Assembly: GCA_938038205.1 (NCBI GenBank)
Contig: CALHSA010000012.1
Location: 1 to 50,645 of the forward strand
From: an uncultured bacterium
GTDB lineage: Bacteria; Bdellovibrionota_C; UBA2361; JANWWW01
DNA length: 50,645 nucleotides
Direction: 5' to 3'
Part shown: one piece after another, positions 16,241 to 28,499 of the stretch
Layout of the letters: every line of letters begins with the position of its first letter
Position numbering within the stretch: position 1 is the stretch's first letter
The notes under the pieces: generated by a model
The model's database searches: none
What the model was told of the DNA's origin: nothing
Seen by the model: the letters and a program-made list of their open reading frames with translations, nothing else
Made by a program: the position numbers and the translations under genes

Positions 16241-16795
16241 CTAGCTTACAATATTCTCCAACAGACAATTCATGAAAAACGTAGATGCTCGTATTGAAAA
16301 GCCCGCCTCACTCTCCTCCACTTCTGCAACAACTTTGTTTAATCGATACAATCTAAAGATTCTATGATTATCCTTCTTTACTCCTAAAGTTTTAGACTGA
16401 TTTACAAGAAAACCATCCTCTGAGACATATGTACAACAAACAAACTCATCCTTGAAAAAAAAAGGCCAAAGATTATGCAGCCCTAACTTTATAAGATCAT
16501 GGCTTTGTAGATTGGAGCTGGTTTGATGAGAAAGCTTTTCTCCATCTTTTTCAATTTTCAATAAGCTTATCTTGAATAGTTGAGAAACACTTTCTAACAG
16601 TATTTTTTTTCTATTTTCATCTTGTTTTTCTAATATCAATCTAAGATCAAAGGAAGGGCTAGAGCACCTGTAAACCTTCTTTGTCCAAATTTTATCATCA
16701 AATTTAATTACCGAAGGTGCTTTTGAAAGATAAAGACTACAAGATGAAGTGAACAAGAACAGTAAAATGATGTTTACGAGCCTCACTCTCGCCAA
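16241..16795 (-). CDS. Small predicted lipoprotein of unknown function
   Basis: A 184-aa protein with a lipoprotein signal: a hydrophobic stretch (LVNIILLFLFTSSC) ends in a Cys at residue 19. The mature part is mixed alpha/beta without a family I recognise; a second pair of cysteines occurs in VCCTYV. Its start overlaps the end of the glucan synthase gene by 13 bases and its stop abuts ldcA, so it is part of the envelope operon. It may be an outer-membrane or periplasmic accessory protein for glucan synthesis or export, but that is only inferred from position. Confidence 0.75.
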   Translation of the reverse strand: MARVRLVNIILLFLFTSSCSLYLSKAPSVIKFDDKIWTKKVYRCSSPSFDLRLILEKQDENRKKILLESVSQLFKISLLKIEKDGEKLSHQTSSNLQSHDLIKLGLHNLWPFFFKDEFVCCTYVSEDGFLVNQSKTLGVKKDNHRIFRLYRLNKVVAEVEESEAGFSIRASTFFMNCLLENIVS

Positions 16796-19700
16796 TCTAC
16801 AACAATATCGTTCTCGTTATTAAGTAAATCTTCCAGATTTATCATTTGATCAGAGGCTTTGTTGTTAATGAAGACCTTTGGAATCTTAGAAAATCCTGAA
16901 AAAATTATTACTTTAGAGCATCCCCACAAAAGTTCTAAATCACCTAACTGGGAAACAGGGGAATAATTAAACTTCACAAATCCAGATTCTAATTCAACCC
17001 CAATAAAATATTTGAGAATTAACTGAATTGCCCAACCTGAGCTGCCAGTGTACCAACTCCAACCTCCCCTTCCTATCATCGATGGATGAGAGTAAACATC
17101 CCCACACAACACATAAGGCTCAGTGACATACTTGTTTTTGGCATCAATGTCTGACAGATAAATATCAACAGGATTAATAAGCTTGAATAACTCAAACGCC
17201 TCCTCTCTTCTCCCTATGTGAGCAAATGCCATTATAAGCCATATTGCGGCATGGGTATATTGAGCTCCATTCTCCCTCAATCCTGGCATGTAACCTTGAA
17301 TGTATCCAGGACTTGGGTTTGATTTATCAAATGGGGGACTTAGAAGCTTTATTATTCTGTTACTCTTATCAACAAGAAATTTCAAACAAGAATCTAAAGC
17401 TGCCGAAGTTCTCTCCTTACTGCCTAAATCTGTTAATACTGCCCAACTCTGAACCAAAGAATCAATTTTGCACTCGCTATTCCTACTCGAGCCCAGCGGT
17501 GTTCCATCATCAAAAAACGCCCTTATGTACCACTCTCCATCCCAACAAAATTTCTCTACTGAATCAACTAGTTCTTCTGCTTTTATCTCTAACTGAGCAG
17601 CGAAATCTAGATCATTCAAATCGCGGGCTATTTTTGAAAACTGTTTGAAAATCCAAGCTTGAAACCATCCAAGCCAAACGCTTTGCCCTTTTCCTCCACT
17701 ACCAACCTCACTAAAACCATCGTTCCAATCACCAATTCCAATTAAAGGCAATCCTAAGTGCCCATATCTCATACCGTTTATTAGAGATTTTTTACAATGC
17801 TCATACAGTGACTCCTTAACATTTGAACTTTCAGGCACAATATAAATCTCATGCTGATCCTCCTTCAGCTGCGGACCTTTTATATACTCAATAAATGTAT
17901 TTAGAATGTTTTTATCTCCAGTTGAGTTAATGTACCTAATAACTGTATATGGCAACCATAAAAAGTCATCTGAAAATCTGGTCCTTGTTCCCTTACCCGA
18001 AGGTGGATGCCACCAATGCTGAACGTCTCCCTCAATAAACTGTCGACTAGCGTGTAAAAGAATTTGGTTTCTTGTTATATTCGGATTAACATACAACATA
18101 GCCAATGAATCCTGTAATTGATCTCTAAACCCGTACGCTCCGCCACTCTGATAGAATCCAGAACGGCCCCACAGTCTACAATTCAATGTTTGATGAAACA
18201 ACCAAGTAAACAGTATGTCAGTTGCCTTACAAGAGGATTTTAAATGAATCGTCGCAAGTTCTTTTTGATTTTTAAGATCCTCAAAGTTTAAGTTAAACTC
18301 TTTATTTTTTAACTTTTCAATGAAACTTTGTTTTTCTGATTCTTTTACCAAAAATTTAATTATTTCTACTGAGGTATCCTGTTCCTCAGTTAGCATTAAC
18401 TTTACCGCAATGCTTTTAAAACCCGAGGTTGAGATAGAATTAGATAATTTAACTTCCTCATTTGCTTTGAATTTGGAGAAAATCCCAGGCTCCCTTACAC
18501 TACCATACTGACCAATAAATTCTCTCTGAGAAAATGTAAAACTATCGATAGGTACGCTAAACCAAATTATCCAACACCATTCATTAAAATCTTCATTTGC
18601 AGGGTTGCTTACGATAATAGCATTTGCTGTTAGATCAATATCAAAAATTAAAAAACGATTTGTTTCAAAAAAGTTGACACCAAGAACAGGCTCTAGGTAA
18701 TAGAAAAATTCTGTTTTTTGATAATTCCCATATAGTTTAAAACTCGAAACAATCGAGTTTTCACAAACCCTGTGAGCTAATGTTACTGATTTATCACCAA
18801 AGATTCTCTTGTAAATAGCTGATGACTGATCATACTGCACTTTTATCGGTCCAAAATCATCTTTAAGAATTAGTTGAGGAGAGAAAATTTCACCAGTCAC
18901 AACATCCCTTAAATAAAAACACTCGCCGGAAGGATCTTTAACGGGGTCATTACTCCACGGTTGTAGCCTGAATTCTCTACTGTTAATTGCCCATGCAAAG
19001 CTAGACCCTCTCTCTGTAGTTAAAATACCTACTGTTTCATTAGCTAATACGTGACTCCATGGAGCATTTGGCAGGGAGTCAAAACGAAAAAAACCAATAA
19101 AATTATGATTGGTATCAAAGCCGCAAGTATCTGATATCGGTATATCTATTTCTTCAAGTTCCTTTATATCAAAGGTTTTAGCATGTTTTACTTTTATTTC
19201 ACTTGTGAATTCATCTCCCTTTTGCTTTTCCAACAATAACTTATCTAAAAGTTCAGGTAATGAAAGGTTACCCGGATTTACCTGTACAGCTGAAAAAGCT
19301 TTAAGCACCTCAAGATCACTCTCACTTACTTGCTCTTTTGATCTAATATAAATTCCACCCTTCCTCTCAATAAGATGACCAAACCCTTTACTTCTCATAA
19401 AATTTTCAATTCGCTCTCTAACAGATTGAATGTATCCCTCCGATATTAAATTTAAGATCACTAGATCGAAAATGAATCCTTTTAAGCTTGCATAAGCAAA
19501 AGCTTCAAGTATCTCAAACACTATTCTAAGATCTTTTTGTGATTTGAGAATTACTAGAACTATTCTGTTATCTCCCGAAATCCCTAGTTTCCACAAATCT
19601 CTTTGACTAAATTTAAACCCAGGTAAATTTTCAGGAGGATCGTAAAGAAGCAAAAGATTGACTAGTTGTTGATACGTAATGAAATTACCCGGGTTGAAGA

Positions 19701-22700
19701 TCTCTGATTTTAATTCAATATTATTCTGGCTCCAACTTAGTTCAAATTGATAATGCAGAGAGTACTTATCACTTAAGTTGTCTAAGATATACAAAAGTTC
19801 ATCTTCAGAGTTAGCAATCGCAGTTATGAAGTAAGCAAACTCAGTTTGTCCAGGAGGAACTCTAAAATATTGCTTTATTGCCATAATTGGATCAAGTACA
19901 AGCCCCGCTGAGTTTGTTAAAGTTTTTTGAGTCATTCCAATAGGGTGTGATTCGTCTCTACCTCTACCTATGAATTTTTCTCGCTTTGTTTCAAATTCAG
20001 TCGGCTTAAATACTCTGTCTAATACTATACGATGTCCAAGGAATATCGGTTTTTCGTTGTGACTACGAGGCCTTCTTTTAAAAATAAGGCAATCTTTTTC
20101 CCTCACAAATTTCGATTCAATAAATAATTTTTGAAAAGCTGGATGAGCAACATCGGAGGGGAAAGTTGCTAAACAAACCTCTGCATACGAGCAAATTGAA
20201 GCAACAATCGTTTTGGGTCCTAGATTAGTTAATGATATTTTTCTTATATCAGCATTAAACACAGTGGATACGGTACCCTCATAGTAACAGAACAAAGAGC
20301 CAAACCGCTGTTTTATCTCAAACTTATCCGGGGAAGTGAAAAACTCGTACAGTTCACCAAGTTTTTTTAAAGGTTGATAACTTGCACTATATAGCTCCTC
20401 TGTTCCTTCATCTTTTATGTAAAAAAAATAGCCATAATTTGCTTTCACAGGCTCTGGCCTCCAACGAGTTAAAAATAAATCTGGAGTAAATACGATAAAA
20501 CCACTTCCAGAGGAGTCAATTAACGATAGCAACTTAGAATTCGATACAAAATGTGTGCTTAATAAGCCACTCGAAGGCTTATTGAGTATTCTTGTAGTTT
20601 CTCTAGTTTTTGTGATTTGCTTATCAGGCTCAGTGTATAAAACATCCTCTACGGAAACAGTAACAATGACTTTCGGTTTTTTTTCAAAAAGTATACTCTC
20701 AGCTGCTGATACTTTCGGATCATCATGAAATAGTTCCTTTATGAAGGAGTTACATAATAGATTGCCCAAAGCTGATAAACTCATTCCTTGGTGATGCGCA
20801 AAATGAGCATCAACAACGAAATATGATTGGTTCGTTGGAAGCCTATCCCTAGAAAAATCGATTGACTCAACAAAACCAAGTGTTCTTCTTGCATTGTAGT
20901 TTGTTTCCAAATTAATTAAATTTTCATACGAATCTTTGGGTACATACATGGCTGCCATTAAAGATGAATATGGCGAAACAACTAGATCACTGAATAAGCC
21001 TCTTTTTAACCCTAAACCAGGAACGCCAAAAGCTTTATATTGAAAGTTTCCATTCAGATCAACTATTCCATAAGCACTCTCTGAAACCCCCCAAGGTACT
21101 TTATTTAACATGCCATATCTTTTCTGCACCTCTATAGCAGATTTGACTGCAAAACCCATGAATGATCCTTCAAACGTTTTTAAAAATATCTCTGGCATTA
21201 AATACTCAAACATGGTTCCAGACCAGCTCAACGGAGCTAGAATGTCATGCACGTCTCCAATGATGCGACTTAGTTTAAACCAAATCTTAGGATCAAAACC
21301 GTAATAAGAAATGGCCACAAAATAACCAAGTCGAGCCTCCGAGCAAAGAAAATCATAGCAACCTGTATCTCTCCTAGCTGAATCTACGTTATAACCGATT
21401 GAAAATAATTTTTTCGATTCATTGAACAGAATATTAAAATTCATTTCAGAGATTAATTTAACGGTCAAAGCCTTGCTTAGTTTTATTGCCTCGAAGAGTT
21501 CATTCTTTAAAATTTCAGGAATTTCATCAAAAGCGTTAGGATAATTAGATACTATTTCCAAATTCCTCTGAACTATTTCAGCGCAACTTGATCCCAAATT
21601 CGATATGTTTAGACTACTTGAGTCTAAAACTAAATCAATATTAAAGGTATTTTTCCAAAACGTGTAAGCTGATTTATCAAGTAGTGGTAGATTTGGTGCT
21701 CTAGATAGAAAGGATTTTATCACAATTAAACACGCAGCGAGGTTCCCACTATCCGCAAACGAGATATATCTTGGGTTAAGCGGACTACTAGTATTAGTGT
21801 CATACCAGTTATAAAGATGGCCAAAAAATTTCTCAAGCTTATCAATGTTAAGAAGTATATTCCTGATAGACATAACTGCAGTTTTGAGATCAATAATTCC
21901 AAGTTTGTACGCAACTGGATAAGCTAGCAGTGAGAAGCCAAGGTTTGTAGGACTAGTTCTTTCAGCTAGAATTTTTTCCGGAATATTCTGCTGATTATCA
22001 ATAATTAACCATTTCTGTGCTTTGTTTAAGTGCTCATAAAAAAATAGAAATGTTTCAAATGCAACTCCTCGAAAGTAATTCTCAATATGTGGAGTCAATT
22101 CTTGTTGAACTTTTTTAAATTCTTGATCGAGTAAAAATACAACAACAGGAGCAATAAAAAAGAGTGCGCTAAATATAAACCCTAAGAACGATGAGGAAAA
22201 AAATAACAGCAAAATTGCTGCAATCAATTGAACTACAACTAGCTGTAAGTAAGCGCCAATATTCTTACTAAGCTTTTCAGCTAGAGAAAAAGTTACCCAC
22301 TCCAATAGGTTCTTTTTTGTTCTCAATCTTACAAGAGTTGTTCCCACAGCACTTAAAGCATTCAAGCTTTGATGAGGTAATACACAGAACCAGTAAAGGG
22401 CTTGAGAGACGACTTTAATTACGTCCAGTCTAAAACCCTGTAACTTACTTGCAAAAGAAATGTTCCTAGGACCTAAAGCGAAAAGCTGAGAAAAGCTAAT
22501 AAATAGAGGGAATGTAAATATTACAAAAGCCATAAGCAAAGCAACTTTCCCCACATTGAAACCAATAATTGCAGATAAAAAAATAGAAACTAAAATTAGT
22601 GGAGGTATTAAACTTCGCCTCAAATTATCTAGTAACTTCCATTTACCTAAAATTGGCGTGGATTTTTTAAAAATCCAAGGTAATAACTGCCAGTCTCCGC

Positions 22701-24933
22701 GAAACCATCTATGAAGTCTTTTCGTGTATGACAAATAATTAGTGGGAACATCATCAAAAAATTCAACCTGAGAAACAAAAGCTGCCCTGGCAAAAATGCT
22801 CTCAATCAGATCATGACTTAGTATGCACTCATCTGGGAATCTGTTATCCAAGCATTTTAAAAAAGGGTCGACTACGATCAAGCCTTTACCCAAAAAATTA
22901 GCTTCACCAAAAACATCAAAATACAAATCACTCACCTCACGGGTATAAGGATCAAAGCCCTCCGAATCAGACATTAATCTTGAAAAAGGAGTTTTAAGAC
23001 ATGATTCTAAGTTGAAATTTATTCTTGGCTGAAAAATACTCCAACCAGAGCTGACAAAATACATGTTTTCAGAATCTAAAGTTACCTGAGCTTTATTGTA
23101 GGGGTGGGCAGCATAACCAATTAGACTTCTAACTGCCCCAAGAGACATCTGAGTATCAGCGTCTAGAGTAACTACATACTTTACTCCCTCAAGCTCATTT
23201 AAAAGATCGGTTGAGATATTATAGAAAGTTGTATTTGCTTGAGAATCCCTGATTAGTCGTAAAAACTCTAGTAATTTACCTCTTTTCCTTTCCCAACCTA
23301 TGTATTTACCCATTGTGTGAGACTTCACGGGCTTTCGTAAAAGTGCGAAGATTTTAATTGAGTGTTCCCTTCTAATCTCTGTAACTTTTCTGTTTATGTA
23401 AAGAGTTAACCTGTTTAAATATTCAGAATCATATGGTTCAGATCTATCTGGTAAATCTAGAAGAGCCACCCAAATGATAAAATCCGAATCCTGCTCACTG
23501 AAAGCTCGTTGAAGAAGACTATCTAAAAACTCTCCGATTTCCTCTTCAGAGGAAACTAAACCATGAGACACCACCGCAACTTTATGCTCTTCACTTAAGC
23601 TCTGCAAATCTAATTTTGGTAAGAATCTAGGTTTTATTAATCTCAGAGTAATAGCGTTTACGACTTGAAAAGATAATTCTAAAAGTAACAAAAACCAAAC
23701 AACGAGAAGCGTCAAATGCAAGAAGTTAAAACTGAGAGCGTAGCTGAAAATTAATAAAGAAAGTATTAAAGCCAAAAATATAACACACCCCAAATAAATA
23801 CTTAATTTAAACTCTCCTAGGGTTCTTAAAATCTTTGCTCTAAAAGAGAATCCTAGATCTTTGTCTAAAAACTCATACCGGTCGGCACCAAATAGTAAAT
23901 CGAACAAGCATTTGCCGGTTTTTTTTGATTTAAGAATTAATTTATTAGCTATTTCTATCTCAGTTAAACCAGATAGCCTTGCTAATCTCTCAATAGAGGA
24001 TCTTGTTTTTTCTCGAGAGTAAAAATCGCTAATCGAATATTGCTTATCTGCTAGACAAATCTCATGGAGAGATGAGGCCTTCTCTAATAATTCAGAAAAA
24101 TTAAAGTTATCTAGTTCATTTAAACTATGAAAACTTTCAGCTATGAATATCTGTCTCTCAGCTAGATGGTATTGTATTTGCTTGAATTGCTCTTCGATAT
24201 TAATTCCAATCTCTTTGTAGTAATTTTCTAGTAAGCTTAGTATTATCCATGAATTAGGCTTTTCTCTTAATTGTGAAATGATTAAACAAGCTTGCCTTTT
24301 TAGAAGATCTTTGCGTTTAAAAAGCTCTCTCAGTAAGTTTAAGGCAGTTTCTGATTCGGTTAATCCCTCAGCTTTAACCTCCTCAAAAAGTTGTAGAATA
24401 AGATCTCTGTCCCTAAGTTCTTGAAGGACCTCGTCATACACCTCACTCAGGTTTTGTAAAATGCCAATCCTAAGCATTTCTTTTAATGCCCACAACTCAG
24501 CTAATTTGAAGGATAGTTTCTTAGATAGGTCTGTAATTACATGTACTAGGGCTTCCCATGTTAGAGTTTGATTAAAGTTTTTAAGAAATTCTTGACATAT
24601 GATAAAAATTCTTGGATAGACACGGCCGTTTTTCTGAAGCTTAAGAACGGCTCTGTCAAAATCTTTTCGATATAATTTTTTAAACATCTTTAAATGTCTT
24701 TCCACAACGTAAAAATTGTCTAGAAGCCAATCACAACCAGCTGGAAGATAATTTTTATCATGTTCAATTTTTTTAAATTTTTCGTAGTACCCGTAAAACT
24801 TGGACATGAGTACATCCGGAACACTTAATAAATTAGAGGTGCCCCGCGCTACTGGAAGATGTGCTACTTCTTCAAAAAGTGCAGCTGATAAAGCATTAAA
24901 AAACTCCGTGGAAAAACCTTTAACCCTTTCCAT
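16783..24933 (-). CDS. ndvB: Cyclic beta-1,2-glucan synthase (NdvB/ChvB/Cgs family)
   Basis: A 2716-residue inner-membrane enzyme, near full length for the family. Such enzymes build cyclic beta-1,2-glucans from UDP-glucose: chain start and elongation by a GT84 domain, length control by the C-terminal GH94 phosphorylase domain. Visible are membrane helices at ~380-430, the GT domain with VVTLDADTQM (~590) and HRWFRGDWQLLPW (~743, the Q/RxxRW-type site), further helices at ~770-960, a glycoamylase-like region with RDTGCYDFLCSEARLGYF (~1190), and GH94 motifs RDQLQDSLAMLY (~2268) and GIGDWNDGFSEVG (~2400, catalytic Asp). It heads a minus-strand operon with a lipoprotein, ldcA, M19 and a peroxidase. 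Cyclic glucans serve osmotic adaptation and host interaction in Rhizobium and Brucella; the role here is unknown. Confidence 0.95.
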   Translation of the reverse strand: MERVKGFSTEFFNALSAALFEEVAHLPVARGTSNLLSVPDVLMSKFYGYYEKFKKIEHDKNYLPAGCDWLLDNFYVVERHLKMFKKLYRKDFDRAVLKLQKNGRVYPRIFIICQEFLKNFNQTLTWEALVHVITDLSKKLSFKLAELWALKEMLRIGILQNLSEVYDEVLQELRDRDLILQLFEEVKAEGLTESETALNLLRELFKRKDLLKRQACLIISQLREKPNSWIILSLLENYYKEIGINIEEQFKQIQYHLAERQIFIAESFHSLNELDNFNFSELLEKASSLHEICLADKQYSISDFYSREKTRSSIERLARLSGLTEIEIANKLILKSKKTGKCLFDLLFGADRYEFLDKDLGFSFRAKILRTLGEFKLSIYLGCVIFLALILSLLIFSYALSFNFLHLTLLVVWFLLLLELSFQVVNAITLRLIKPRFLPKLDLQSLSEEHKVAVVSHGLVSSEEEIGEFLDSLLQRAFSEQDSDFIIWVALLDLPDRSEPYDSEYLNRLTLYINRKVTEIRREHSIKIFALLRKPVKSHTMGKYIGWERKRGKLLEFLRLIRDSQANTTFYNISTDLLNELEGVKYVVTLDADTQMSLGAVRSLIGYAAHPYNKAQVTLDSENMYFVSSGWSIFQPRINFNLESCLKTPFSRLMSDSEGFDPYTREVSDLYFDVFGEANFLGKGLIVVDPFLKCLDNRFPDECILSHDLIESIFARAAFVSQVEFFDDVPTNYLSYTKRLHRWFRGDWQLLPWIFKKSTPILGKWKLLDNLRRSLIPPLILVSIFLSAIIGFNVGKVALLMAFVIFTFPLFISFSQLFALGPRNISFASKLQGFRLDVIKVVSQALYWFCVLPHQSLNALSAVGTTLVRLRTKKNLLEWVTFSLAEKLSKNIGAYLQLVVVQLIAAILLLFFSSSFLGFIFSALFFIAPVVVFLLDQEFKKVQQELTPHIENYFRGVAFETFLFFYEHLNKAQKWLIIDNQQNIPEKILAERTSPTNLGFSLLAYPVAYKLGIIDLKTAVMSIRNILLNIDKLEKFFGHLYNWYDTNTSSPLNPRYISFADSGNLAACLIVIKSFLSRAPNLPLLDKSAYTFWKNTFNIDLVLDSSSLNISNLGSSCAEIVQRNLEIVSNYPNAFDEIPEILKNELFEAIKLSKALTVKLISEMNFNILFNESKKLFSIGYNVDSARRDTGCYDFLCSEARLGYFVAISYYGFDPKIWFKLSRIIGDVHDILAPLSWSGTMFEYLMPEIFLKTFEGSFMGFAVKSAIEVQKRYGMLNKVPWGVSESAYGIVDLNGNFQYKAFGVPGLGLKRGLFSDLVVSPYSSLMAAMYVPKDSYENLINLETNYNARRTLGFVESIDFSRDRLPTNQSYFVVDAHFAHHQGMSLSALGNLLCNSFIKELFHDDPKVSAAESILFEKKPKVIVTVSVEDVLYTEPDKQITKTRETTRILNKPSSGLLSTHFVSNSKLLSLIDSSGSGFIVFTPDLFLTRWRPEPVKANYGYFFYIKDEGTEELYSASYQPLKKLGELYEFFTSPDKFEIKQRFGSLFCYYEGTVSTVFNADIRKISLTNLGPKTIVASICSYAEVCLATFPSDVAHPAFQKLFIESKFVREKDCLIFKRRPRSHNEKPIFLGHRIVLDRVFKPTEFETKREKFIGRGRDESHPIGMTQKTLTNSAGLVLDPIMAIKQYFRVPPGQTEFAYFITAIANSEDELLYILDNLSDKYSLHYQFELSWSQNNIELKSEIFNPGNFITYQQLVNLLLLYDPPENLPGFKFSQRDLWKLGISGDNRIVLVILKSQKDLRIVFEILEAFAYASLKGFIFDLVILNLISEGYIQSVRERIENFMRSKGFGHLIERKGGIYIRSKEQVSESDLEVLKAFSAVQVNPGNLSLPELLDKLLLEKQKGDEFTSEIKVKHAKTFDIKELEEIDIPISDTCGFDTNHNFIGFFRFDSLPNAPWSHVLANETVGILTTERGSSFAWAINSREFRLQPWSNDPVKDPSGECFYLRDVVTGEIFSPQLILKDDFGPIKVQYDQSSAIYKRIFGDKSVTLAHRVCENSIVSSFKLYGNYQKTEFFYYLEPVLGVNFFETNRFLIFDIDLTANAIIVSNPANEDFNEWCWIIWFSVPIDSFTFSQREFIGQYGSVREPGIFSKFKANEEVKLSNSISTSGFKSIAVKLMLTEEQDTSVEIIKFLVKESEKQSFIEKLKNKEFNLNFEDLKNQKELATIHLKSSCKATDILFTWLFHQTLNCRLWGRSGFYQSGGAYGFRDQLQDSLAMLYVNPNITRNQILLHASRQFIEGDVQHWWHPPSGKGTRTRFSDDFLWLPYTVIRYINSTGDKNILNTFIEYIKGPQLKEDQHEIYIVPESSNVKESLYEHCKKSLINGMRYGHLGLPLIGIGDWNDGFSEVGSGGKGQSVWLGWFQAWIFKQFSKIARDLNDLDFAAQLEIKAEELVDSVEKFCWDGEWYIRAFFDDGTPLGSSRNSECKIDSLVQSWAVLTDLGSKERTSAALDSCLKFLVDKSNRIIKLLSPPFDKSNPSPGYIQGYMPGLRENGAQYTHAAIWLIMAFAHIGRREEAFELFKLINPVDIYLSDIDAKNKYVTEPYVLCGDVYSHPSMIGRGGWSWYTGSSGWAIQLILKYFIGVELESGFVKFNYSPVSQLGDLELLWGCSKVIIFSGFSKIPKVFINNKASDQMINLEDLLNNENDIVVDWRE

Positions 24934-25845: not shown

Positions 25846-26262
25846 TTAAAAATTTTTAACCAGATAATCATATACTCCCTCTAGATACTCTTCATCGTAA
25901 GTTAGAAACTCTTTCAATAATTCTATCGCTTCCAACTTACCCTTACTCTTAGCAATCATTAAAACCAAGTTTTGAATACGCGGCGATACAAGATGCTTCG
26001 CATCTTTATTAAACGTCAAATCTGATAAACAAGTTTTAGCTTTCTCAAAGTTTAGAGTATTTATGAAAAGATCACATAGCTCCAATTTGTAATACGCATA
26101 CTCATCGGTGCCTTTATCTTTAAAACCACTTAAGAAGGTGTTATAAAGTTTCTCAGCTTCAATTACCCTTGAATTTAGAGCAGCTTCTCTGGCCTCAAAA
26201 AGTGTCTTAAATTTGCTACTGCAGCCAAGAGCGAGAAGAAAAAAAATGAATGTACTCCTCAT
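25846..26262 (-). CDS. Small predicted lipoprotein, helical (TPR-like)
   Basis: 138-aa protein with a lipoprotein signal: MRSTFIFFLLALGC, where LALGC is a good lipobox with Cys at residue 14. The mature part is almost wholly helical with repeated paired helices (for example YKLELCDLFINTLNFEKAKTCL), like a short tetratricopeptide array. Its start overlaps the 3' end of the LpxL-like gene by 47 bases, so they are likely expressed together. No specific function can be assigned. Confidence 0.7.
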   Translation of the reverse strand: MRSTFIFFLLALGCSSKFKTLFEAREAALNSRVIEAEKLYNTFLSGFKDKGTDEYAYYKLELCDLFINTLNFEKAKTCLSDLTFNKDAKHLVSPRIQNLVLMIAKSKGKLEAIELLKEFLTYDEEYLEGVYDYLVKNF

Positions 26263-26944
26263 GATTAAAAATTTTATCTCTTCTGGATCTCCACCGTTTA
26301 TGAAACCAACACCATGAGCATAAATCTGTCTTTATAGCTGATTCAAGTAAAAGATTAAAAGTATTAGCCATCTGTTGTGGTGAAGTTGCTTTAATTTCTT
26401 CAAGATTTATCTGAACATAATTCTCCCTCACTGAGTATGATAAAAAAAACAAAGGTTTATTCATTTCAACTGCTAGTCTAAAAACAGTTACTGGAGTTTT
26501 AGCCTCTATACCAAAAAATGGTACAAACTCTCCTTTCGCCCGCGTATCTTGATCGATAAAAAAAACACACTTTGATGCAGCTTGTATCCTGCTAATGTTG
26601 AAGCGATAACAAATGTTAACCGGATATACCACTTCGAGTAAATGGTAAAGCAGCTCTAAAAAAACATTTCTTGGAGCTCTAACTACGATAGTTAACTTAG
26701 TATTCAGATTTTTAGTCCATTTAACCAAACTAGGAAGAAGAGGAGTGTGGTAAGAAAGAATATAACAATCTTCGATTATTGTTGGTCCCTTCACAGGTTT
26801 AAAAATCGAAAAAAAGGCAAGCCTTGTAAAATTTTTCCAAAAATCCTCCGCTGAAAGATTTATTCCCAGACCAGTAAAATGAGCAGTTATAATCTCAGTT
26901 TCTTTTTTTAAAAGAAACCTAAATATTCGGAAGGGAAGATTCAT
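26216..26944 (-). CDS. LpxL/HtrB-like acyltransferase with atypical active site
   Basis: Resembles lipid A late acyltransferases, which add a secondary acyl chain to the lipid A precursor at the inner membrane. Matches are FIDQDTRAKGEFVPFFGIEAKTPVTVFRLA (residues ~120-150, the family's DQ...G.FVPFFG.pA.T block) and CSWCWFHKRW near the end (W.HrR). The usual catalytic H-x4-D/E is not obvious: the position reads YHTPLLPSL, with His followed by Pro instead of an acid four residues on. At 242 aa it is also shorter than LpxL (~300 aa). It may be a divergent or inactive member. Confidence 0.7.
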   Translation of the reverse strand: MNLPFRIFRFLLKKETEIITAHFTGLGINLSAEDFWKNFTRLAFFSIFKPVKGPTIIEDCYILSYHTPLLPSLVKWTKNLNTKLTIVVRAPRNVFLELLYHLLEVVYPVNICYRFNISRIQAASKCVFFIDQDTRAKGEFVPFFGIEAKTPVTVFRLAVEMNKPLFFLSYSVRENYVQINLEEIKATSPQQMANTFNLLLESAIKTDLCSWCWFHKRWRSRRDKIFNHEEYIHFFSSRSWLQ

Positions 26945-26978: not shown

Positions 26979-27010
26979 TTGACTTTTAATAAATTTTATT
27001 GCATCATAAA
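26979..27010 (+). promoter_or_regulatory. Candidate promoter for the structured RNA/speD leader
   Basis: TTGACT at 26979-26984 is a good -35; possible -10 sequences are CATAAA or TCATAA around 27004-27010. Spacing is loose (about 19-20 bp). Transcription would start near 27015, just before the structured RNA. Confidence 0.4.
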
Positions 27011-27025
27011 AGTATCGGCGAATCC

Positions 27026-27160
27026 AGGCTAGACAAGGTCGGTAGGCCTTAAAAGCTCTGGAAGGTTCCGATATATTTTTCTACCTGAAAAGGTAGTTTA
27101 TTTTTGAAAAATATATTTAGGAAGCCTTCTTAGGAGGGGCATGTAAGGCCTGTCTGGCTT
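27026..27160 (+). ncRNA. Long rod-shaped structured RNA upstream of speD (6S-like RNA or regulatory leader)
   Basis: This non-coding stretch is more GC-rich than its surroundings and folds into one long rod. Paired elements from outside inward are GCTAGAC (27028) with GTCTGGC (27152), AGGCCTT (27044) with AAGGCCT (27145), an asymmetric internal bubble, GAAGG (27061) plus TTCC with GGAA plus CCTTC (27120-27129), ATATATTTTTC (27071) with GAAAAATATAT (27106), and an apical hairpin CTACCT-GAAA-AGGTAG (27081-27096). A 9-nt bulge sits at 27035-27043. A rod with a central bubble recalls 6S RNA, but position just before speD also fits an mRNA leader. I do not recognise a known riboswitch consensus. 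Confidence 0.65.
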
Positions 27161-27209
27161 TTCAAAATGTCTCAAATAAGATCGCTTCCAAGAGTTTTTC
27201 ATAATTTCA

Positions 27210-27234
27210 CTGCTAGAATTTTTGATTCTAGCAG
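27210..27234 (+). terminator. Perfect 10-bp hairpin just before speD (terminator or attenuator)
   Basis: CTGCTAGAAT and ATTCTAGCAG form a perfect 10-bp stem around a five-base loop, followed by GTTTTG. The T-tract is short, so termination would be partial. It lies only nine bases before the speD Shine-Dalgarno, placing it to end the upstream RNA or to control read-through into speD. Confidence 0.6.
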
Positions 27235-27255
27235 GTTTTGAGTTTGGAGGGTGTT

Positions 27256-27630
27256 ATGGAGGCTCTTGGTAGGCATTGTATTTGTGAGTTTTACAGCTGT
27301 GACCCTAAGCTTCTCAACAACTCAGCTTACCTAAGAAAGCTGTTTGTTGAGACGGCTAAGGATGCTGGGGCTACTATAGTTAAAGTTATTTTTCATAAGT
27401 TTAGCCCTTTTGGGGTATCAGGTGTAGTTGTAATAGCTGAGTCTCACCTTACAATTCACACATGGCCAGAGTTTGGATATGCAGCCGTAGATGTTTTCAC
27501 TTGCGGACATCTGATAAACAACACGGCTTTGGTTGAAAAACTTAAGCTGGGCCTACGGGCTGTAAATGCATCAGTTAGTGTGATAGAGAGAGGTATTCTA
27601 ATGTCAAATCAAAAGGCGGTTTTGAACTAG
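27256..27630 (+). CDS. speD: S-adenosylmethionine decarboxylase proenzyme (SpeH/SpeD type 1b)
   Basis: Pyruvoyl enzyme that decarboxylates SAM, giving the aminopropyl donor for spermidine. It is made as a proenzyme that cleaves itself before the Ser in VIAESHLTIHTWPEFGYAAVD, which is present here with the conserved Glu and His. Further motifs are the Cys in VFTCG and an N-terminal GRHCICEFYSCD. The ATG at 27256 is chosen because GGAGG stands at 27247-27251; a TTG at 27238 would include the hairpin-adjacent sequence and the SD. At 124 aa it is standard for the bacterial short form. speE follows after 11 bases. Confidence 0.95.
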   Translation: MEALGRHCICEFYSCDPKLLNNSAYLRKLFVETAKDAGATIVKVIFHKFSPFGVSGVVVIAESHLTIHTWPEFGYAAVDVFTCGHLINNTALVEKLKLGLRAVNASVSVIERGILMSNQKAVLN

Positions 27631-27641
27631 GTGAGTTAAGC

Positions 27642-28499
27642 TTGAGGGGTAAATATTTTTTTGTTGATAACTCACTGGAGCCGTATAGAAAGGAAATTTG
27701 GCAAATTGAGAGCATCTTATTCTCCGGAAAGTCAGAATTTCAAAAAATAGATGTAGTAAAGCTTGATAAACTGGGTAAAACCTTATTTTTGGATGAAGCA
27801 ATTCAGTTCTCTGAATTTGATGAAGCTCACTATCATGAGTTATTTGTTCACCCAGCTTCAGCTGTAATTAAACCAGAGAGGGTTTTAGTTTTAGGGGGAG
27901 GAGATGGTGGTTGTGTCAGAGAATTACTTAAGCATGAATCTGTCAAGGAGGTTATCGTTTGTGAAATAGATCCGATGGTTGTCGATGTCTCAAAAGAGTA
28001 TTTTCCTCAAATGGCAAACTCTTTCAATGACAAACGCGTTATTCTTGAGTTTCAGGATGCAAAAAAATTCATTGAATCGGATAATTCCATGTACGACCTA
28101 GTCTTGGTTGACCTAACCGATTTGGGAGAGCTTAGCTCCGCAATTTATAACGTGTCTTTTTACAGTTTGTTACAATCAAGACTATCGCCTAAAGGGGGTA
28201 CAGTCATTCAAACCTCGGGAGTATACTTTTTTGATGATGATGCATTTTCGGTTTACTCATTCATTAAAGACCTAAAAAAATTTTTTAAATTTATATCATT
28301 AAGCTACGTACCAGTTTTTTCTTATCCGGGAGCAGAGAATAGTTTCCTTTATTGTTCAAACGAATATGATTTTAGTAACTTAAGACTGCCCCCATTGTCT
28401 TTTGAAAGTACTCTTAGATTTTACACCACTCAATATGCTGAGAGTACTTTTAAATTAAATTCTTGGATTCAGAAAAAATTGAACAAAGCAAATTTGTAA
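27642..28499 (+). CDS. speE: Spermidine synthase (polyamine aminopropyltransferase)
   Basis: Transfers the aminopropyl group of decarboxylated SAM to putrescine, producing spermidine. Motifs: FLDEAIQFSEFDEAHYHELFVHP near residue 47, the SAM-like binding loop VLVLGGGDGGCVRELL (~83), CEIDPMVV, and the catalytic-site VLVDLTD (usually D-x-x-D-P; here Asp-Leu-Thr-Asp without Pro). The start is TTG at 27642, with no better ATG. The last 50 bases overlap the convergent mpl. Together with speD this is a minimal spermidine operon; a putrescine source is not in the window. Confidence 0.92.
   Translation: MRGKYFFVDNSLEPYRKEIWQIESILFSGKSEFQKIDVVKLDKLGKTLFLDEAIQFSEFDEAHYHELFVHPASAVIKPERVLVLGGGDGGCVRELLKHESVKEVIVCEIDPMVVDVSKEYFPQMANSFNDKRVILEFQDAKKFIESDNSMYDLVLVDLTDLGELSSAIYNVSFYSLLQSRLSPKGGTVIQTSGVYFFDDDAFSVYSFIKDLKKFFKFISLSYVPVFSYPGAENSFLYCSNEYDFSNLRLPPLSFESTLRFYTTQYAESTFKLNSWIQKKLNKANL

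Follow-up and report, generated by a model that had tools for sequence, protein, structure and literature searches.

Background

One spermidine riboswitch is established, a SAM-I variant that precedes polyamine genes, speD and speE among them, in Gram-positive genera and in metagenomic DNA; it has the four-stem SAM-I architecture and acts by termination (PMC10853860). In Salmonella, the leader of the polyamine-synthesis gene speF is a long RNA that can fold in alternative ways and conceals the gene's ribosome-binding region, and it needs the translation of a conserved upstream frame, orf34 (PMC6386406).

The RNA considered here lies upstream of speD-speE in a contig of an uncultured bacterium of the phylum Bdellovibrionota_C; the whole stretch of DNA that was analysed, 50,645 nt, is referred to as the window. 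As with the spermidine riboswitch (PMC10853860), a structured leader stands before polyamine-synthesis genes and is thought to adjust spermidine production; unlike that riboswitch, it shows neither a SAM-I match nor a four-stem junction, and it appears to act on translation initiation. With the speF leader (PMC6386406) it shares length, alternative folds and the predicted hiding of the ribosome-binding region, but it has no conserved peptide, and no sequence relation is seen. The SAM-I riboswitch itself (RF00162) is likewise a leader linked to SAM use and occurs elsewhere in the phylum, although it has no match here. No description of this speD leader was found by literature search or in Rfam. 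If an uncultured lineage has a second, unrelated RNA in front of speD-speE, regulation of spermidine synthesis by RNA must have originated at least twice, and in the switch predicted below the gene's own coding start constitutes the displacing strand.

Genomic context and conservation of the leader

The RNA is located between a minus-strand acyltransferase-like gene and speD, which is followed by a speE-like gene (Table 1). It was compared with the only other member of the order included, the metagenome-assembled genome Deltaproteobacteria bacterium SKYG31 (genome G001, locus L007; "the relative"), which belongs to the same family and to another genus. The relative carries the same RNA before speD-speE, while its upstream genes are unlike those of the window and oppositely oriented. 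As the RNA and speD-speE have been kept together across genera with different genes upstream, the RNA is tied to these genes and not to the locus; conservation of the whole element in this arrangement indicates that it is very probably a cis-acting leader of speD rather than a 6S-like RNA. The two SpeD proteins share 71% identity, and only 14 of 40 fourfold-degenerate sites of speD are identical, so that unconstrained sites are near saturation.

The TTGACT element reported in a first-pass annotation of the region is present and belongs to a promoter-like site with 9 of 12 matches; the homologous position in the relative, TTGAAT-16-TATAAT, has the better form (10 of 12). Both sites precede the common 5' end AAGTATCGGCGAATCC, and since a -35/-10 site is kept directly upstream of this end, the transcript probably starts near 27010. 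Besides AAGTATCGGCGAATCC, the alignment reveals long unchanged runs in GGAAGGTTCCGATATATTTTT, GGAAGCCTTCTTAGGAGGGGCA and TCTCAAATAAGATnGCTTCCAAGAGTTT, and the invariant blocks include GGAAGGTTCCGATATAT, GGAAGCCTTCTTAGGAGGGGCA and TCTCAAATAAGATnGCTTCCAAGAG; between the invariant runs lie variable hairpin tips that differ in sequence with their pairing kept.

Upstream of the leader region, the minus strand contains an open frame of 2716 aa (16783-24933), which is very large for a 1.2-Mb assembly; judged by eye only, it looks like a cyclic beta-1,2-glucan synthase (NdvB-like).

Table 1. Features of the speD leader region (positions in the window)
Feature	Position	Strand	Basis
Lipid A acyltransferase-like gene	26216-26944	-	5' flank of the leader RNA
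Promoter-like site, TTGACT-17-CATCAT	26979..27007	+	sequence; homologous site in the relative by alignment
Core element: structured RNA leader, conserved	27010..27205	+	alignment with the relative; folding z-scores
H1: P1 GUAUCGG/CCGAUAU, P1b UCCAG/CUGGA, P1c AAGGUC/GGCCUU, invariant internal loop CGAA	27012..27074	+	folds; 4 two-sided changes, 0 broken
State B rod (the rod of the first-pass annotation)	27032..27163	+	computed pair list; z -5.8
H2: CUACCU-GAAA-AGGUAG, also the tip of the rod	27081..27096	+	2 pairs changed on both sides
H3: GGAAGC/GCUUCC, UCUUA/UAAGA, GGGGC/GUCUC, variable tip	27105..27201	+	z -5.4; model R1
Leader-side strand of the long-range helix in state B, complementary to the speD start region	27164..27205	+	folding; pairing controls
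H4: perfect 10-bp stem CTGCTAGAAT/ATTCTAGCAG, terminator-like, weak U-run; looped out in state B	27210..27234	+	sequence; counterpart in the relative
speD Shine-Dalgarno sequence GGAGGG	27246..27251	+	sequence
Coding strand of the state B helix: speD start codon (27256-27258) and codons 2-12	27253..27292	+	folding; synonymous identity
speD, S-adenosylmethionine decarboxylase	27256..27630	+	TIGR03330 (above cut-off), PF02675
speE-like spermidine/polyamine synthase gene	27642..28499	+	PF01564

Two predicted, mutually exclusive folds

The leader alone folds into H1 (P1, P1b and P1c), H2, H3 and H4, an arrangement of local hairpins designated state A. In the interval 27015-27240 the folding energy is -80.5 kcal/mol, compared to a mean of -53.8 kcal/mol for shuffled sequences (z -5.8), and with the first speD codons included (27010-27295) the z-score reaches -7.1. 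The rod with a GAAA tetraloop that the first-pass annotation had described is real in that it folds beyond its shuffles (-55.5 kcal/mol, no shuffle equally good; z -6.5 in the relative), with the hairpin UACCU-GAAA-AGGUA at its tip. It is not, however, the minimum-energy fold of the interval 27015-27240 in which it had been placed: there state A with its local hairpins is favoured, and the rod prevails only once the speD start is included.

The 3' strand of the leader, which is strongly conserved, resembles the reverse complement of the first codons of speD, as noticed while scanning the loci. When the first 13 codons of speD are added, both genomes change to the rod together with a helix between this strand and the start codon with codons 2-12 (state B). 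The folds, computed in both genomes, are mutually exclusive. The minimum, state B, lies at -102.0 kcal/mol in the window and -113.1 kcal/mol in the relative, against -93.0 and -106.9 kcal/mol, respectively, for state A with H3 enforced; enforcing both H3 and P1 in the relative yields -102.6 kcal/mol, a cost of about 4 kcal/mol. In the ensembles that include the speD start, the long-range pairs CCAAGAG:CUCUUGG have probabilities no lower than 0.998 in either genome. State B would thereby hold the start codon, together with the eleven codons after it, in a helix of about 28-30 kcal/mol, with the Shine-Dalgarno sequence in a loop. When the folds of a growing chain are calculated as equilibria at 37 C (not as kinetics), H3 dominates from its completion until about speD codons 1-5 and state B thereafter in both genomes, the two folds being more mixed at intermediate lengths in the relative than in the window.

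Several controls bear on the long-range helix. With amino acids fixed and codons drawn by local usage, 2.2% of synonymous recodings in the window and 0.2% in the relative pair equally well (p=0.022 and 0.002), as do 5 of 2941 and none of 2405 random 42-mers from the same DNA, respectively; owing to common ancestry, the tests in the two genomes are not independent. It also speaks against the helix that some unrelated speD genes pair with the leader strand of the window nearly as strongly by chance, the best of 52 others (L065) at -28.0 kcal/mol, compared to -28.2 kcal/mol for the window's own gene. Between the two genomes, speD codons 3-13 are unusually conserved at synonymous level, with an identity of 9/11 as opposed to 92/218 over the remainder of speD-speE (Fisher p 0.011). 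At codon 2, GAG in the window and ATA in the relative, the facing leader bases (UUUUUCAU and UUUAUCAU, respectively) differ in step, amounting to one two-sided change and two compatible one-sided changes, and the AUG faces CAU in both genomes.

Compensatory changes in relatives had been named beforehand as a check on the fold, and an alignment upstream of speD does contain them. In a helix alignment of window and relative made by hand, the counted core pairs of state A comprise 38 unchanged pairs, 2 one-sided changes, 7 two-sided changes and no broken pair; those of state B include 1 two-sided and 8 one-sided changes, again with none broken. The covariation is thin because only two sequences are compared, and two sequences cannot settle the fold.

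Pairing in both folds was considered as an explanation of the invariance, and the count of positions lends it no support: 77 of 101 positions paired in both folds are identical, versus 55 of 67 paired in one. Among the bases that are invariant and unpaired in both folds are the GAA within CGAA (H1) and the GGA within UUAGGAG (H3); a site for a ligand or a protein would most likely be sought among these bases.

Relation to 6S RNA

The first-pass annotation had alternatively proposed a stand-alone 6S-like RNA. In one of its folds the leader is indeed a long rod like 6S RNA (RF00013); what it lacks is the closing stem around a central bubble that 6S RNA has, and it possesses a second fold besides. 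In state A the partner of its 5' end is an internal segment (P1), and in state B this end lies outside the rod, so neither fold has a stem closing the 5' and 3' ends. A covariance search of the region with the 6S model yielded no match at E up to 10, nor was there one in G000 or G001, while the same model gives matches in five control genomes. On the search result and the missing closing stem, a 6S RNA was rejected; the tie to speD and the second fold are further differences from it.

More broadly, a small RNA of 6S or another type could end at H4, with speD expressed by read-through. Such an RNA would have its own promoter-like site, a terminator-like hairpin and a long rod, state A is the fold favoured for an RNA ending at H4, and a divergent 6S RNA could be missing from the annotation of G000 and G001, where Rfam finds none. 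This scenario is nevertheless improbable, as the element is tied to speD-speE in both genera despite the rearranged upstream side and its ends do not pair; besides, wherever both a weak 6S-like match and speD were found elsewhere in the phylum, the match lies on a contig other than that of speD.

Full-length 6S matches of 24-33 bits, below the cut-off of 46.4, occur in five genomes of the phylum (L089-L093 in G008, G013, G002, G027 and G019). They are probably the phylum's divergent 6S RNAs, missed by the Rfam cut-off.

A predicted translational switch

On the computed folds, the speD-speE mRNA probably begins with a bistable, cis-acting leader that regulates translation of speD by a start-codon clamp, and this leader would most likely switch spermidine synthesis on and off at the level of translation. 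The nascent RNA would first take its local hairpins (H1 closed by P1, H2 and H3), with the leader 3' strand held inside H3 and the speD start free. The first speD codons, as they emerge, could displace H3, the leader 3' strand pairing with the start codon and codons 2-12; the freed 5' half of H3 would then zip with the 3' strand of H1 into the long rod. With its start codon buried in state B, speD should be silenced. As the 30S subunit requires a single-stranded start region, state B is expected to be the off state and state A the on state. A signal linked to spermidine metabolism presumably biases the choice of fold: binding at the conserved internal loops CGAA (H1) and GGA (H3) of state A would hold the gene on, and stabilisation of the rod would hold it off. 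Computation shows the conservation, the two folds in either genome and a statistical excess of pairing with the start of speD; the order of events, the consequence for translation and a ligand are inferred.

The perfect 10-bp stem that the first-pass annotation had noted before the speD ribosome-binding site is present as H4. In the relative, a terminator-like hairpin of unrelated sequence occupies the same place (2945-2973 of its locus), followed by ATTTGTTTTTTTTT with a run of nine T. This correspondence, together with the termination mechanism of the known spermidine riboswitch (PMC10853860), is what speaks for transcription attenuation, in which the conserved leader would be the aptamer, H4 the terminator, and a ligand would decide whether transcription reads on into speD. 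Such a mechanism is unlikely. H4 is formed in state A and state B alike and competes with neither, the computed folds contain no antiterminator for it, the stem in the window has only four G-C pairs and is followed by the tail GUUUUGAGUU, and the pairing with the speD codons would be left unexplained. Looped out in both states and having no antiterminator, H4 resembles a spacer or a terminator in its own right more than the switch itself. Of the earlier proposal of a speD leader acting by attenuation, the leader stands, as the RNA moves with speD-speE and pairs with the speD start, while attenuation by H4 is not supported, given its presence in both states, missing antiterminator and weak U-run in the window; the evidence favours control at translation initiation.

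The same start-codon clamp could serve an RNA thermometer, or an autoregulatory leader that binds a protein, instead of a metabolite sensor. Thermometers typically sequester the start codon, and the invariant unpaired bases could be a protein site; yet a bistable leader of 200 nt whose internal loops are invariant exceeds the needs of a thermometer, and no candidate protein is known here, which leaves this option rather improbable.

As to the signal of the predicted translational switch, the genes make SAM or polyamine sensing plausible and suggest SAM, decarboxylated SAM, MTA (methylthioadenosine) and spermidine as the natural candidates. That the leader senses a metabolite at all is possible, with the balance somewhat against it. 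Similarly tentative is the specific proposal of a new riboswitch class, confined to the order and sensing SAM, decarboxylated SAM or spermidine, that would shut speD by strand displacement between the aptamer domain and the first dozen codons.

Known riboswitches and upstream reading frames

In agreement with the earlier remark that no known SAM or polyamine riboswitch consensus is recognisable, covariance search against the Rfam riboswitch families gave no match. Over the region, no Rfam family reaches its own threshold and only chance-level matches appear up to E = 10; other SAM riboswitches and all other cis-regulatory families of Rfam show nothing above the gathering score, only chance matches far below it. 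SAM-I (RF00162) is without a match in the window, G000 or G001, while the same model at the same settings, used as a positive control, has matches in 8 of 46 phylum members. Known riboswitches were rejected on these grounds.

Inside the leader, at 27133-27146, a perfect AGGAGG is followed by GGC-AUG-UAA, a start codon directly before a stop. The relative has the same AGGAGG, followed by a TTG-started frame of 13 codons. The AGGAG in the leader could be a ribosome decoy. It might also be the site of ribosome-mediated or leader-peptide control as at enterobacterial speF, a ribosome at the AGGAGG inside the rod altering the fold: UUAGGAGGGGCA is invariant, its GGA is unpaired in both folds, and each genome has a frame after the AGGAGG. 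However, the frame is empty in the window and 13 codons long in the relative, other small frames differ too, and the comparison of the two revealed no conserved upstream frame or peptide. A conserved upstream peptide was rejected on this comparison, and speF-like control has little probability.

Phylogenetic distribution

A model built on H3 (R1) recovered only the two known copies among 383 genomes, with none in the 381 others. Within the phylum (46 genomes), it found one copy in each of the order's two genomes and none in the remaining 44; across 81 sources (the window and 80 speD loci of other genomes, the relative's included), no credible copy appeared beyond that of the relative. The exact core pattern had no match in viral contigs, a search of both genomes for further copies of the 5' motifs gave chance-level matches only, and in 20 speD loci of other phyla Rfam recognised nothing but tRNAs. 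As far as searched, the leader is a lineage-restricted element carried by two genomes.

In four speD matches from other genomes of the phylum (L099, L100, L103 and L110), one in-frame stop lies inside the match; these may be cases of alignment run-over, pseudogenes or assembly errors.
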